The position numbers were made by a program, and so were the translations under genes. From positions 1,054,001 through 1,118,000 of the forward strand of contig NZ_QGDO01000002.1 in the NCBI RefSeq assembly GCF_003149185.1: a stretch of DNA of 64,000 bases, given 5' to 3'. The stretch's first letter is position 1, and each line of letters starts with the position of its first letter. Below are positions 45,416 through 64,000 of the stretch, piece by piece. Below the pieces are notes generated by a model that worked only from the letters and a program-made list of their open reading frames with translations, ran no database searches and was not told the origin of the DNA. The stretch comes from Sediminitomix flava (GTDB lineage: Bacteria; Bacteroidota; Bacteroidia; Cytophagales; Flammeovirgaceae).

Positions 45416-46333
45416 TCAATCATACCGAGGAAATATTCTCAGGAATTGGGATTGAATCATCCAATATTTCAACCTTCTTATAATTCTCGCTTTGAATACC
45501 TCTACATTAAAACCTGACTTACTTTCTTTTTCAAGTCTAAAAAAACTATCCGAAAGGTATTTTTGAAATAGTATAGCATAGGGATGTTCACAGCTATCAT
45601 GCCAAGGTTTAAATTTACCACCAGCTATGAAATGAATGATTCTAGCATCGTATATCTGCCTATTATAATATCTCTTGGAGTGGCTCAAACCAGAGTAATT
45701 CCATTTTCTATCTAAAAAAGTGATATCATCCTCAAATAATATATTTAAGATATCTTGATCCCAAAATCTAAATAAAAAATCCTCCTCTTTAAGGATAGAT
45801 AAGGCCTTAGAAAAAATATTATTCAAACGCCACTTTTTCAAATCAATCAGTAAAACACCCGCATTAAAATATTGACTTTCTTTTTTCAGGCCTAAATCTA
45901 GTTTATAGTTTCTAAAAAAAGATTTACTAATATCTTCTGACGCCCCAATAGATCTATCTTGTAGATCTGTTTTCCATAAAGGCAAAATACTTCCTACTAC
46001 TAAAATATCAACATCTAAATAAAGAATCTTATCTAAATGAACAGGAAGTACCTCTGCTAATATTAATCGAAAATAGGTTTCTATACTAATATGTGCATTG
46101 ATTGTATATTCTGCAACCGAGAAAGTAGAACTATCAATTTTTATAACCGTATAGCTATTCTGATAAGTTTTACATAATTGCTCTATTTTTTCTAGGTTGC
46201 CTTTACTCAGTCCTTGTGTCAGAATATAAACATTGAATACAGTTTCTTTATTGTTCTCAAATAAAGAAGTAAGCATTACTCCCATATAAGGAGCATAAGA
46301 TTCATTAATTGCACAAGCTATATTAATTTGCAT
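45416..46333 (-). CDS. Glycosyltransferase family 8 protein
   Basis: A 305-residue retaining GT-A enzyme. INIACAINESYAPYMGVMLT opens the fold, KILYLDVDILVVG carries the DxD motif (D107, D109), and YFNAGVLLIDLKKWR is the typical acceptor-side motif. Members use UDP-glucose or UDP-galactose for LPS and other glycans. It lies 23 bases after the sulfotransferase gene on the same strand. Confidence 0.92.
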   Translation of the reverse strand: MQINIACAINESYAPYMGVMLTSLFENNKETVFNVYILTQGLSKGNLEKIEQLCKTYQNSYTVIKIDSSTFSVAEYTINAHISIETYFRLILAEVLPVHLDKILYLDVDILVVGSILPLWKTDLQDRSIGASEDISKSFFRNYKLDLGLKKESQYFNAGVLLIDLKKWRLNNIFSKALSILKEEDFLFRFWDQDILNILFEDDITFLDRKWNYSGLSHSKRYYNRQIYDARIIHFIAGGKFKPWHDSCEHPYAILFQKYLSDSFFRLEKESKSGFNVEVFKARIIRRLKYWMIQSQFLRIFPRYD

Positions 46334-46356
46334 ATCAATCTTTAAATCATCTGTGT

Positions 46357-47274
46357 TTATGCTTCTTCATTCATATTCCAATGAGATAAATCTATACCCG
46401 TCAATTCTTGTAAGGCAAGATTATATGGCTTATAAAAACGATTTAAATATTCTCTTGTCTGTTTATCCATCTTTGGAAAACGAGTATTAGACTTATTTGA
46501 GTTGATTATCACATCACCAATGTACTTAAATAGACTTGGAGGTAATATCGCTTTTATTATTTGTTTAATCGAACTATTATTATTTCTCAGTTGATGAATG
46601 ATTGATGTTAAAAATTTAGACCTAGGGACTAATGTCTGGTTATGAACATCAGTTTTCAAATTAGTAGAATTATTTACACCTATCATATCACATAATTCTT
46701 GACAGATTTTCTTAGGATTACTTTTTAAATCTTCAAATAAATAAATACTAACTTGTTCCTTTGAAAAGTACTTATAAATCATTCTAAGTTGTTCAATATA
46801 TAGGCCTAATCGTACAAACTGATTATACATGATATCATATTCCCCTTTTTTCCATTTCTCAATAGCATCTATAACTTCTGAAAATGATTTACTCATCCAA
46901 CCATTAACTACTCCCATAGTATATGATGAATAAGCTCTTTCTGTGGGATTTCGTAATATTATTGCAATATGACAATCAGGAGAATGACTCTTCAACTTTT
47001 CAATTGACTCTTCATTCATACACATTCCTACATTCTTGACAACCAACTTTTTTTCCCTTAATTCATCAATATGAATACAATATTGAGCTAAGGTATTTTG
47101 AAATCCATTTTGTTGTTCCTTGGTGTTGATAAAGTAAGCAAACTCTTCATGAGGGTGTGTAACTAACTTAGGATTTGATCCTAAGTAATTTTTAAGAGAT
47201 GTTGTACCGGCTTTTTGAACGCCTATAATAGCTAGAGAAATAGTAGTAGTAGTAGTAGTAGTAGTTGGGTTCAT
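46357..47274 (-). CDS. Sulfotransferase with poly-Thr N-terminus
   Basis: A 305-residue sulfotransferase. The PAPS phosphosulfate loop is GVQKAGTTSL (from residue 18), and R108 in LRNPTERAYSSY is the 3'-phosphate-binding arginine. A short HEEFAYFI segment matches the KEPxYF-like motif of heparan-type enzymes. Residues 4-11 are eight threonines encoded by an (ACT)8 tract directly after the start codon. The enzyme should move sulfate from PAPS to a carbohydrate. Neighbours are GT8 and GT4 genes, so a sugar of the same polysaccharide is the likely acceptor. Confidence 0.9.
   Translation of the reverse strand: MNPTTTTTTTTISLAIIGVQKAGTTSLKNYLGSNPKLVTHPHEEFAYFINTKEQQNGFQNTLAQYCIHIDELREKKLVVKNVGMCMNEESIEKLKSHSPDCHIAIILRNPTERAYSSYTMGVVNGWMSKSFSEVIDAIEKWKKGEYDIMYNQFVRLGLYIEQLRMIYKYFSKEQVSIYLFEDLKSNPKKICQELCDMIGVNNSTNLKTDVHNQTLVPRSKFLTSIIHQLRNNNSSIKQIIKAILPPSLFKYIGDVIINSNKSNTRFPKMDKQTREYLNRFYKPYNLALQELTGIDLSHWNMNEEA
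47241..47266. repeat. (TAG/ACT)8 trinucleotide microsatellite in a coding start
   Basis: Eight perfect TAG units (47241-47264) plus two bases on the plus strand, read on the minus strand as ACT codons (Thr). It begins three codons after the sulfotransferase ATG. Change in unit number would keep the frame and alter only N-terminal length and the early mRNA. Confidence 0.9.
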
Positions 47275-47367
47275 TAATTTTAGCTTTTATTATTCATTGA
47301 ACTCTAAAAAATTAACATATAATAGTGTTTTTTTTCACAAAAATCTATTATGAATACCGAGTTTGGG

Positions 47368-48537
47368 TTACATCCCATATACTAGTTTATAAACTTCCTC
47401 AGACACTTCAAATGACCTATACTTTTTAGCAACTAGACTTAAACTAGACCTTTGTTGATTAGATCTATTCAAGAAACTATGATCTAAATCTTCAAAAATA
47501 GAATGATTTTTTGTATCTAAGACACAACCTATTTTTTCCTCTCTGACTATCCTAGAATCATCTCCTATACCGTCTGGAATTATAATTGGCAAACCATTTG
47601 CCCAATACTCACCATTTTTTATTGGTGATATTCCAATTTTTGAGGGACTTGGTTTATGAAGAGAAAATGCAAAATTTGAGGCCGATAAATATTTAGGGAC
47701 ATCACTATGTTCGACTAAACCTACTTTAGTTTGTTCAGTAGGAATCGAATATTGAGTAAAATATTCTTGACATAACTCCTCTTGAGGTGTAAGTATAATT
47801 AAATATGCCCGTTCTTGATAATACTCAAAAAAAGCTTTAAAGAGCTGAAAAGCTTCTTCTTCATAATATATCCCTCCAAATTTACCTACATAAACCCCTA
47901 CAACAGAATCCATTGATATATTCAATTGGGACCTGATAGAAATATGGTCTTCGTGTTTATAATTAAACGTGTCTAAGTCTACACAACATGGAATTGTATG
48001 TATCTTATCCATTGAGATACCTTCTTCTACCAAATGATTTTTATATGCATTTGAAACAGGCATTAATCCTTTAGCGGTATCCTTCTGTTTTTTTTCCCAA
48101 TATTTTTCAAGAATATACTTAGGGTTCCACTTCGACCAAACCCCAGCTTCTAACATATAATCTGCATGAGGTTCAAAAGACTCTACATAATAGGGAACAG
48201 TCGTTTTTTTATGAATAAGATAACCTAATGCACCTGCAGGAGCTCCCCGACAAATAATTTTATCAATCGATTTCGTTTGTACAAAACGAATTAGTTCTGC
48301 AGGAAAAGAAGTAAAATCCTTTAATTTATCTTTTAATGTATGTCCTGAATATAAGGGAAGATGGATTAACTTAGGAATATTAAAATTTATATTCACATCT
48401 ATATTATCCCTTTCTATACTGACATAATATATCTCTTTAATATGCTCGAAGCTTGAAAGAATACGAAGGTGTGGATAAATAGTAGCTACACTAAGTCCTT
48501 CTTTTGCCCCCCAATAACCTATAAATAAAACCTTCAT
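47368..48537 (-). CDS. Glycosyltransferase, GT4-like
   Basis: A 389-residue GT-B enzyme. The N-terminal domain begins MKVLFIGYWGAKEGLSVATI, the acceptor side reads CRGAPAGALGYLIHKKTTVP, and the donor domain has GVYVGKFGGIYYEEEAFQLF and later SKIGISPIKNGEYWANGLPI. The usual EX7E pair is not obvious, so family placement is by overall pattern. It lies 93 bases upstream of the poly-Thr sulfotransferase gene and 35 bases after a GT2 gene. Confidence 0.8.
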   Translation of the reverse strand: MKVLFIGYWGAKEGLSVATIYPHLRILSSFEHIKEIYYVSIERDNIDVNINFNIPKLIHLPLYSGHTLKDKLKDFTSFPAELIRFVQTKSIDKIICRGAPAGALGYLIHKKTTVPYYVESFEPHADYMLEAGVWSKWNPKYILEKYWEKKQKDTAKGLMPVSNAYKNHLVEEGISMDKIHTIPCCVDLDTFNYKHEDHISIRSQLNISMDSVVGVYVGKFGGIYYEEEAFQLFKAFFEYYQERAYLIILTPQEELCQEYFTQYSIPTEQTKVGLVEHSDVPKYLSASNFAFSLHKPSPSKIGISPIKNGEYWANGLPIIIPDGIGDDSRIVREEKIGCVLDTKNHSIFEDLDHSFLNRSNQQRSSLSLVAKKYRSFEVSEEVYKLVYGM

Positions 48538-48572
48538 TCAGATTCCGGAATTATAACCGTTGTTCAATGATG

Positions 48573-49445
48573 TTAATTAGCTTTTCTTTGTTTTAAGAGC
48601 TGTCCAAACTTTGATGGACTCGTTAGAGCAGATAAAAATAAATACCTAAAAGCACTAAAACGCATACCTAAGTGAAAACTATAAGCCCCTATTGTATATT
48701 GAAAATGGCTTTTGTAACTCGATACATATGGTTTAGGTATTAATTTTTTAGATAAAACATCACGTAAGTAAATTTTATAATCTTGTATCAATTTTGGAGA
48801 GTATTTACGAGACATACTATTCACCAAAATTCGATAATACATTACAGCTTCATCTACCAGCCCTACTTCACCAACTTTAAAGAGTTCATGCAAGAAAAAA
48901 CGGTCTGCTGTATTAAATAACTCTGAATGAAAACTGATTTGATGCGCTTCTAAGATATTTTTTCGTATCAGATAAGAGGATGGACAGGTTTGTGTATTTG
49001 AAGAAAAAGTAAGTAGATCTTGATGTTTACTTAAAGCTGATACTTTTTCTCCTAAGGGCCTTGAATTAGCATCTATATATTCAACTGACGAAGCCACCGC
49101 TACATGTGTAGGATGCCCTTCCAAAAATTGAACACGTTTTAATAAAAAATCTGTAGCCCATACATCATCACTATCCAAAAAAGCAACGTACTCTCCTTTT
49201 GCCTTTGACAGACCAAAATTTCGAGCTAATGAGACTCCTCCATTTTCTTTTTTATAATAGCTTAATCTATGGTCCTTAAATTGTTGGATTACCTCAGATT
49301 GATTGTCAGGAGATCCGTCATCTACTATAATACATTCAAAATCTGTGAAACTTTGTTTAAGCACAGACTCTAATGTTTCTCCTATATATTTTTCTGCATT
49401 ATATGCAGGTATAATGACCGATACTTTCACATTAGTTTCCATCAA
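48573..49445 (-). CDS. Glycosyltransferase family 2 protein
   Basis: A 290-residue inverting GT-A enzyme. Motifs are VSVIIPAYNAEKYIGETLES, CIIVDDGSPDN (VDD 41-43) and VAFLDSDDVWA (D91-S-D-D94). The C-terminal helices contain several aromatic residues and a basic tail. It overlaps the upstream GT4 gene by 14 bases, indicating coupled translation. The start codon at 49445 could also be M2. Confidence 0.93.
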   Translation of the reverse strand: MMETNVKVSVIIPAYNAEKYIGETLESVLKQSFTDFECIIVDDGSPDNQSEVIQQFKDHRLSYYKKENGGVSLARNFGLSKAKGEYVAFLDSDDVWATDFLLKRVQFLEGHPTHVAVASSVEYIDANSRPLGEKVSALSKHQDLLTFSSNTQTCPSSYLIRKNILEAHQISFHSELFNTADRFFLHELFKVGEVGLVDEAVMYYRILVNSMSRKYSPKLIQDYKIYLRDVLSKKLIPKPYVSSYKSHFQYTIGAYSFHLGMRFSAFRYLFLSALTSPSKFGQLLKQRKAN

Positions 49446-53483: not shown

Positions 53484-54203
53484 TTAATGATTCTTCATTT
53501 CAATATCTTGAAATGAGTAGTTTAAAAGATTTATTTCTCTATGAAAAATTAATCTAATCTTTTCAGCTTCATCTACAGATAAGACTTCATTATAATGACG
53601 TTTATCTATTCTTTGGGTTGACTTCGCCTTATAGGTCGGTAAAACTAATCTATTCTTTAACGATAGTTTATTGGTTAAATCTTCAAACATATCTGATAAC
53701 TCTTCATATTTATAGATATTAGACACTATAAGCTCTCCTCTAGAATCCGTATAGTTTTTAAAGTCTTTAATAACCTCAACCGCCCTTGAATCAAGATAAT
53801 TATTTATACTACCAAACTCTGTATCGCCACCTAAATACCAATAATGAGATAAGACTTTATCCCAAGGGTTTCTTTCTACAGCAAATGAGTAGTAAGAATC
53901 ATATCTTTCATTCCTCATTAATTTCTTTACTAATACCGCAGGATTATGATTTCGAAATTCTTTAACGTAACCATATAGTAATCTTCTGTAAACATCTCCT
54001 ATTGTATATTTATACAAAGGGAATTGATAGTTTTGAGCACTTTTAAACCCAAGAGATATTCGATGTTTTTCATCTTTTACCTCATTCAAAGGTGTTATAA
54101 TATCATTACTGCCACAAATAGAAGAAAGCGCAATTTCAATAGATGAACCTGCTGTTTTTCGGGTCTTTATAAAAATAAACTTATGCTGATGAGAAATTAT
54201 CAT
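53484..54203 (-). CDS. Sulfotransferase_2-type carbohydrate sulfotransferase
   Basis: A 239-residue protein with FIKTRKTAGSSIEIAL (5'-PAPS loop, residues 12-27) and FAVERNPWDKVLSHYWYLG, with R111 the 3'-phosphate arginine. KTAGSS in place of the GTTS loop places it in the chondroitin-type (Sulfotransfer_2) branch, unlike its neighbours. It overlaps the upstream GT gene by 23 bases. Acceptor unknown. Confidence 0.88.
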   Translation of the reverse strand: MIISHQHKFIFIKTRKTAGSSIEIALSSICGSNDIITPLNEVKDEKHRISLGFKSAQNYQFPLYKYTIGDVYRRLLYGYVKEFRNHNPAVLVKKLMRNERYDSYYSFAVERNPWDKVLSHYWYLGGDTEFGSINNYLDSRAVEVIKDFKNYTDSRGELIVSNIYKYEELSDMFEDLTNKLSLKNRLVLPTYKAKSTQRIDKRHYNEVLSVDEAEKIRLIFHREINLLNYSFQDIEMKNH

Positions 54204-56102: not shown

Positions 56103-57059
56103 TTATTTTAATGCTGCTTTAATTTTACACCTACCTTTTCTAAAGAAATAAGAAATGGTATTTTTAGGTAATACCCCCATAACTTTCAATTCTTCTTCAA
56201 CCCATGTAGTCTTTTCACTACTTGAGAATAGCTCATTTAAGGGATTTACCCGAACATGCTGATCAAATAATTTATGGTAATGAGCTGAAACAATTTCTCC
56301 AAAGTCATTGACTTTATTCACTTCAGGTATTTTATCTTGTGCATTGATAGGGTAGTTATATGAAAGTGGTAATTCTTTGAGAAGTGGATCTTTTTTCAAA
56401 ACCGTTAACGCACAACTAGTTTGATCCATAAATGTAATTCCCATGTCAGGAACTATCTTTTTTCTCATCAAGTGTATAAATACCGACTCCCATTCTTGAA
56501 ATAGACCTTTAGATGCTTTAACTGGAACTAATCCAACATTCCAATAAGGATAAATATTTTTTAAATCTAAACCAGTTAAAACTTTAGTTGCGGGGGGAAC
56601 TATATCCAATGTTTTATAAGCCTCTTTCCAAAATTTAAAATTAGGATCAGTACTACTTTCTGCCCCAACTCCTTTCTGTTCAACTGGTCTCAATGCTATA
56701 TCACATTCTGCAAGCTCTAAAAAACTTGGCTCTTCTAGAATTATCTGATCACTATCAAAAAAATAAATTAAATCCGAATTCGTATTTTTTTCTGCATGTC
56801 CACAAACTAGGGGTTTATTTCCAAAACCATAATGAGCAAATTCAGTATTAAGATTTTCACTAATTAAATGTACTCCTAAGCTTTTAAGTATATTTTTTGT
56901 ATTTGAAGAAGGCTGAAAGTCTTTTCTAGGACTATAACTTAATACTTCAGCATTTTTAAATTTCCCTCCAAATTGTCTTAATGATTTGACAAATAAAATA
57001 GATTTATACTCTAAAACTCCTTGTTCTGTACAAATTATAAATGTAGCCTTATCTTTCAT
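56103..57059 (-). CDS. Putative GT-A glycosyltransferase (family not assigned)
   Basis: A 318-residue soluble protein. It opens TFIICTEQGVLEYKSILFVK and has YFFDSDQIILEEP, an acidic D-S-D motif like the DxD of GT-A enzymes, followed later by YWNVGLVPVKASKGLFQEW, which resembles the GT8 NAGxLL motif. The last residues are basic. It follows the 57061 GT2 gene by 1 base. A glycosyltransferase is the best guess from fold pattern and context. Confidence 0.7.
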   Translation of the reverse strand: MKDKATFIICTEQGVLEYKSILFVKSLRQFGGKFKNAEVLSYSPRKDFQPSSNTKNILKSLGVHLISENLNTEFAHYGFGNKPLVCGHAEKNTNSDLIYFFDSDQIILEEPSFLELAECDIALRPVEQKGVGAESSTDPNFKFWKEAYKTLDIVPPATKVLTGLDLKNIYPYWNVGLVPVKASKGLFQEWESVFIHLMRKKIVPDMGITFMDQTSCALTVLKKDPLLKELPLSYNYPINAQDKIPEVNKVNDFGEIVSAHYHKLFDQHVRVNPLNELFSSSEKTTWVEEELKVMGVLPKNTISYFFRKGRCKIKAALK

Positions 57060-63179: not shown

Positions 63180-64000
63180 TTACTTAGTTAATAGTTTGTT
63201 AGAAAGAAATTTTCTCAAAATAGAATTGAAATGCCCCCTTTTATCCTTACTATCTTTATTTTGTGCTGCACACCTATTCCTAAAATCCTCTAGCTTAGTA
63301 CTAAATTCATTAGGAGAAAAGATTTTTTGTTGCAAATCAGAAAGATAATTATTTGACATTTCATATAATGCGTTATCTACTCTAAGCCACGGAAGTTTAT
63401 TAATTTTAGATAAAGTATCTTCAGATATAACCAAATCTTTTTCGGAGGTATTGACTCTTTTAGTGTAAGAACAGTCTTTAAATTTAGTAGGGTAAAGAGT
63501 TTCAAGTATCACACATACCTCATCAAATCTTTCTGTTGGAAATAAATGGAAAGATCCATTATTCAAATAGTCTTTAAAAGGGTCTATTGTTTGTGTTTCC
63601 TGCCCTAAAATCCAGTCAGCTTGCCCTGTATCTAATAGAAATGGGTGAAAATTTCTATTAGCACATAAGAAATCAATAACCTCATCTAAACTTTTATTTC
63701 TCAATATATGCCAATCAGATGTCATTGATCTATTTTTTAAATAAAAATAGCTAGACAGTAATTTTTCTATTGGATTGCGAACAAAAGAAATGCCTATAAT
63801 ATTTAGTTCGTCAAAAGGTAAAGATAACAAACTATAGTTATGTGATGTAAAACACTCAAATGGATACAAATATAAAAGAGATCTAATATCTTCTTTATCA
63901 TATTTTTTATAACTCACATATGGCAGATCATCACCAAAGTTATCTTTAAAATTTCTCTTTAAAATATTTCGGAACATTGACCCTGCTGACTTAGGGTTAT
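63180..64000 (-). CDS. Sulfotransferase, 5' end outside the window
   Basis: The frame stays open to the right edge. Reading past the internal ATG at 63977 gives NPKSAGSMFRNIL, which is the 5'-PAPS loop of sulfotransferases, so the true start lies beyond 64000 and the ATG is not the start. FVRNPIEKLLSSYFYLKN holds the 3'-phosphate arginine. About 273 residues are visible. It is the sixth sulfotransferase of the cluster and belongs to the PKSAGS/PKTAGT-type branch. Confidence 0.88.
   Translation of the reverse strand, partial: NPKSAGSMFRNILKRNFKDNFGDDLPYVSYKKYDKEDIRSLLYLYPFECFTSHNYSLLSLPFDELNIIGISFVRNPIEKLLSSYFYLKNRSMTSDWHILRNKSLDEVIDFLCANRNFHPFLLDTGQADWILGQETQTIDPFKDYLNNGSFHLFPTERFDEVCVILETLYPTKFKDCSYTKRVNTSEKDLVISEDTLSKINKLPWLRVDNALYEMSNNYLSDLQQKIFSPNEFSTKLEDFRNRCAAQNKDSKDKRGHFNSILRKFLSNKLLTK

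Follow-up and report, generated by a model that had tools for sequence, protein, structure and literature searches.

The main result of this work is a perfect trinucleotide tract of 25 bp at positions 47241 to 47265, located near the 5' end of a minus-strand sulfotransferase gene, in a window of 64,000 nucleotides of the Sediminitomix flava genome. The tract is a real and locally striking oddity that is rare in its genome, and it most probably represents a recent slippage expansion in a tolerant N-terminal tail, where it would be nearly neutral. As shown by TRF on the window, the tract has a period of 3, 8.3 copies and a 100% match, and the plus strand reads (TAG)8 followed by one T. On the minus strand the coding sequence opens with ATG AAC CCA, continues with (ACT)8 and then with ATT TCT; the eight ACT codons occupy 47265 to 47242, and base 47241 is the first base of the next codon. 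Translation of 47265 to 47242 gives eight threonines, codons 4 to 11, after Met-Asn-Pro, within the N-terminus MNPTTTTTTTTISLAIIGVQKAGTTSL. The initial annotation had described eight identical ACT codons encoding eight threonines, as both TRF and the translation confirm; its start coordinate of 47241 stands, while its end at 47266 falls one base beyond the true end at 47265. It had also placed the repeat directly after the start codon, which is right as to the 5' end of the gene but not as to immediate adjacency, since Met-Asn-Pro precedes the tract. No ATG, GTG or TTG codon other than the ATG at 47274 occurs from the upstream in-frame stop to the P-loop, and therefore the ACT tract is translated, provided that the gene is.

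The codon composition of the run points to the DNA level. In 527 mechanically called ORFs of the same contig (C2:1-800000), the ACT share of threonine codons was 0.348, so that eight ACT codons in a row would result from codon choice alone with a chance of about 2e-4. Runs of at least five identical residues in these ORFs mixed their codons in 12 of 13 cases, the sole single-codon run being one of five CCA. Set against these mixed runs, the single-codon tract makes best sense as a repeat of the DNA, rather than as a threonine-by-threonine build-up. The earlier suggestion of a young DNA-level event thus looks well founded, given the single codon and the absence of the tract from the homologues read.

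Within the window, (ACT)5 matched solely inside the 47241-47265 tract, with 0 matches in 100 shuffles. Outside the window, 800 kb of this contig contained period-3 tracts of up to 15 bp, of which only 3 reached 13 bp; counts in C2:1-800000 dropped about threefold per extra base and ended at 15 bp, and arithmetic extrapolation of this tail gives an expectation well below 0.001 for tracts of at least 25 bp in 6.6 Mb. Throughout the 6.6-Mb genome, (ACT)6 or longer occurred at this tract only, and tracts of at least six units were absent for AAG, AAC, AAT, CAG, CCA and AGG, as well as for the ATC class, which was read only via the reversed control of the ACT search. These genome-wide counts cover 8 of 10 triplet classes (all but ACG and CCG) and rely on exact 18-base patterns, which may miss tracts of 18-19 bp that run in another phase.

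Among 58 genomes searched for (ACT)6 or longer, one other carrier was found, G029, whose ACT-class tract (L022:1501-1522, a CTA repeat) encodes seven leucines at the protein start, MRPILLLLLLLVAVFS, an N-terminus that we read as a signal peptide. By eye, the long open frame of this locus resembles a TonB-dependent receptor, and it adds a second N-terminal ACT-class tract to that of the window gene. ATC-class tracts were present at six loci in five relatives and gave aspartate runs when read in the longest open frame, not necessarily the gene frame; the runs lay near the frame end in L107, L108 and L110 and were internal in L106, L109 and L112. Triplet tracts in this taxonomic order are thus not confined to gene starts. 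In one relative, the locus L108 (G003:C8, about 1584399-1584611) shows a very long aspartate run, encoded by GAT-class repeats close to where its 496-aa open frame ends.

The gene that carries the tract is an ORF of 305 aa with an ATG start (46357 to 47274, minus strand). Its product contains the two elements looked for in PAPS-dependent sulfotransferases, namely the region IIGVQKAGTT (residues 16-25; 47200 to 47229, minus strand), placed by sequence position and conservation, which we take to be the 5'-phosphosulfate loop, and a stretch R-x-P-x-x-R-x-x-S, presumably the 3' phosphate-binding motif. G18, K21, G23, T24 and T25 are invariant in 22 of 22 aligned sequences, a conservation that is partly due to selection because most rows were found via the P-loop pattern; R108, R113 and S116 are likewise invariant in the 22 rows and P110 nearly so. 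Sulfotransfer_1 (PF00685, 50.6 bits, cut-off 22) and Sulfotransfer_3 (PF13469, 49.5 bits, cut-off 27) both score above their curated cut-offs, in agreement with the first assignment of the gene as a sulfotransferase. The PDB sequence match was 3RNL (E 7.8e-24) and the best Foldseek match was again 3rnl (E 4.3e-13; TM 0.63 by query and 0.77 by target). By Pfam domains, PDB sequence and predicted fold, the gene product is a PAPS-type sulfotransferase.

The input of the AlphaFold model comprised the window protein together with 21 of the 80 genome_contigs loci described below, 22 sequences in all, and the model reached a mean pLDDT of 90.4. Residues 1-10 average a pLDDT of 67, and secondary structure begins with a strand at residue 14, in line with the previous placement of the tract just before the first strand. 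Residues 4-11 are accordingly predicted to lie mostly in a lower-confidence tail before strand 1. A first model, from 4 proteins of the window, had a mean pLDDT of only 62.3 and was set aside as poor.

Homologues were matched in 15 of 58 relatives' genomes at E <=0.001, in 28 of 390 order-level genomes at E <=1e-8 and in 9 of 395 phylum-level genomes at E <=1e-20, the own genome being included each time. The best other phylum-level match was 31% identical, and the best order-level match outside the own genome (G273, N-terminus MRKIDLMIIGAQKAGTTSLKNYL) was 37% identical. An alignment scan of genome_contigs gave relatives up to 38% identical among the matches listed (L119). Single-sequence protein scans of genome_contigs and viral_contigs, which reach close relatives only and may leave out records very near the window, found no near relatives, and no same-genus genome is listed among the 58 relatives' genomes. 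The genome_contigs set consists of the best 80 of at least 515 confirmed loci, all obtained via one P-loop pattern. The N-terminus comparison of the homologues omits L019 and L049, whose P-loop is unreadable by the pattern used, together with repeat loci and pattern failures.

The most similar N-termini, MINP-ISLMIVGAQKAGTTS and MRK-IDLMIIGAQKAGTTS, can be set against MNP-(T)8-ISLAIIGVQKAGTTS in the window protein. The N-terminus of L126, MINPISLMIVGAQKAGTTSLKHY, from a protein 32% identical overall, resembles MNP-ISLAIIGVQKAGTTSLKNY, that is, the window protein minus its eight threonines. The tract is absent from these homologues with similar N-termini. Among the best 80 of at least 515 genome_contigs loci, 0 of 80 had three or more consecutive threonines within the last 30 residues upstream and 0 of 80 had ACTACT in the last 90 upstream bases; the N-termini displayed for other genomes' homologues contained no three-threonine runs either, the window gene excepted. 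In the same set, the distance from the nearest ATG to the IIG motif had a median of 7 in the 76 of 80 loci with an in-frame ATG; 4 of the 76 exceeded 13 and 11 equalled 1, the latter surely being internal ATGs. The window gene has 15 residues before the motif, and 7 once T8 is removed, equal to the homologue median. The simplest reading of these sequences would be that the tract is an insertion into an otherwise standard N-terminus. One locus of this set, L127, has 16 residues before the motif without any repeat, and therefore extra tail length alone is no proof of recent insertion.

The sulfotransferase gene is part of a run of minus-strand genes for glycosyltransferases and sulfotransferases at 43364-63977, which includes four Pfam-positive sulfotransferases (46357, 51648, 52493 and 55266), a WbsX glycosyltransferase and a methyltransferase. 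The run is low in G+C, with 31.4% in 43.3-64 kb, compared with 36.5% for the window's left part. Judged by its gene content, 43364-63977 has the appearance of a locus for a sulfated polysaccharide, which may fairly be inferred to be a surface or exported one, and the neighbouring glycosyltransferase and sulfotransferase genes make surface sulfation a plausible role for the enzyme. Pfam gave no match for 3 of 10 scanned neighbours, all on the minus strand (53484-54203, 56103-57059 and 63180-63977). The product of 53484-54203 starts with a sulfotransferase-like loop, FIKTRKTAGSS, and that of 63180-63977 appears distantly sulfotransferase-like by eye. Sigma-70-like sites in 46300-48600 numbered 12 against a shuffle mean of 13.3, with 0 of the 12 in the 93-bp gap before the gene (47275-47367), and a Bacteroidetes-type promoter pattern matched the window 5 times where 6.16 matches were expected, with none of the 5 near the sulfotransferase gene.

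The effect of the tract on start-codon RNA structure was calculated as the opening energy of -18..+15 with the downstream end fixed. The predicted energy falls from 7.05 kcal/mol with 0 units to 4.73 with 3 units, a drop of 2.3 kcal/mol, and further to 3.90, 3.78 and 3.65 kcal/mol with 7, 8 and 9 units, so that each unit around n = 8 is worth about 0.12 kcal/mol. The whole insert (7.05 to 3.78 kcal/mol) may thus ease initiation, but at eight units the gain or loss of a single one should pass without effect. Folding in a fixed window had suggested an extra loss of structure at 9-10 units; it vanished with the end anchored and was taken as an artefact, which we attribute to a downstream hairpin leaving the fixed folding window. 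We think that the hairpin on the coding strand at 47166-47186 misled that folding. The inverted repeat at this place, ACTTAGGATTTGATCCTAAGT, has 9 pairs followed by T-rich plus-strand DNA, and is terminator-like although it lies inside the sulfotransferase coding region.

These calculations bear on the proposal that the tract is a fixed leader, in which at least about three ACT codons block a stem over the start codon and raise translation, the exact count being immaterial. The drop between 0 and 3 units speaks for it, as does the MFE of -30..+40, which at -2.7 is the second weakest of 21 cluster starts (range -2.6 to -12.7; one start is clipped by the window end). However, 99.6% of 500 random threonine-codon octets reach the short-window MFE of ACT8, so that a pure DNA repeat is not required for it; when the window is lengthened, 60.5% of 200 such octets do so, with a mean within 0.4 kcal/mol. 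Most other cluster genes have stronger predicted start structure, and weak structure is therefore no requirement there; moreover, the unexpanded ancestor is an assumption. We regard this leader as unlikely, even if the 7.05 to 3.78 kcal/mol change, together with the short-window result that ACT8 is matched by just 8.2% of 500 random 24-mers drawn from the cluster, makes a fixed benefit of the whole tract possible. The initial annotation had proposed a possible tuning switch for surface sulfation, in that unit gain or loss could alter early mRNA structure and expression. On this reading, slippage would change the unit number often and each step would shift expression of the enzyme. The length and purity of the tract, in a genome where such tracts are very few, and the location of the gene among polysaccharide genes are consistent with it, and an in-frame triplet change can alter an enzyme, as the accessible part of PMC3477136 describes for E. 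coli ahpC (TCT, 4 to 5). Against it, a one-unit change at eight is predicted to be worth only the 0.12 kcal/mol given above, the frame is constant with the tract inside the coding sequence, and the homologues read lack the tract. Such a switch is very unlikely, and the calculation lends its mRNA basis no support near eight units; the accompanying statement that unit gain or loss is frame-neutral holds for a triplet at codons 4-11. The idea is tenable only in a weak form that involves large contractions: a slow rheostat, in which contraction to less than about three units would close the stem over the start and lower the sulfotransferase, and re-expansion would restore it. We give this version very little credence; if true, it would produce cell-to-cell variation in surface sulfation without frameshift.

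A functional poly-threonine tail, acting in the protein by contact, modification or targeting, would fit an in-frame run that precedes the first strand at the N-terminal end of the model, but the use of a single codon, the absence from the homologues read and the lower-confidence coil in the AlphaFold model render it highly improbable. That the repeat length is an assembly or sequencing error might be suspected from a 39-contig assembly; with eight clean units, an intact ORF and a 1.26-Mb contig this is extremely unlikely, and a tract of 25 bp is short enough for common reads to span. We infer slippage as the cause of the tract, as well as its recent age and its near-neutrality. In the expansion that we favour, a short ACT motif would have arisen in the tail codons of the sulfotransferase gene and, through replication slippage, grown to eight units without loss of frame, and the tail before strand 1 would tolerate eight extra threonines. 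The tract would be retained because the tail tolerates threonines and triplet changes preserve the frame.

PAPS-dependent sulfotransferases (PF00685/PF13469; Alicyclobacillus 3RNL; heparan sulfate NDST and 3-OST) share sequence, fold and conserved motifs with the window protein, which differs from them by its N-terminal threonine run. As a repeat, the tract neatly illustrates how a solitary triplet array may expand in a protein tail that tolerates it, in a genome where such repeats are very few. Its length could be used as a marker among isolates of Sediminitomix flava, and the tract would have larger significance only if that length varies and affects sulfation. Phase-variable contingency loci are tetra- and mononucleotide tracts in surface-glycan genes. 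The sulfotransferase tract is likewise a simple repeat near a gene 5' end among polysaccharide genes, and, as a long pure tract, an outlier in its genome (25 bp versus at most 15 bp in 800 kb), but a unit change inside the coding sequence shifts neither frame nor promoter spacing, and frame switching is impossible for a triplet. It belongs to a known kind of repeat and is in this sense an ordinary feature. In the sections available, PMC2621210 refers to earlier prokaryote work with mononucleotide repeats biased to gene 5' ends and finds that Neurospora trinucleotide repeats favour gene termini. PMC12699852, also accessible in part, gives trinucleotide STRs as the commonest class in prokaryotic coding regions, with high STR density in Bacteroidota and weak enrichment at bacterial gene borders. 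Coding-sequence repeats favour the N-terminus, above all in pathogens, according to excerpts of PMC3899988. A close comparison is the TCT tract of E. coli ahpC (Ritz et al., 2001), also a trinucleotide tract in an enzyme gene with frame-preserving unit changes; there, as far as the available part of PMC3477136 describes it, a one-unit change from 4 to 5 altered enzyme function, whereas the sulfotransferase tract lies in a tail before the fold.
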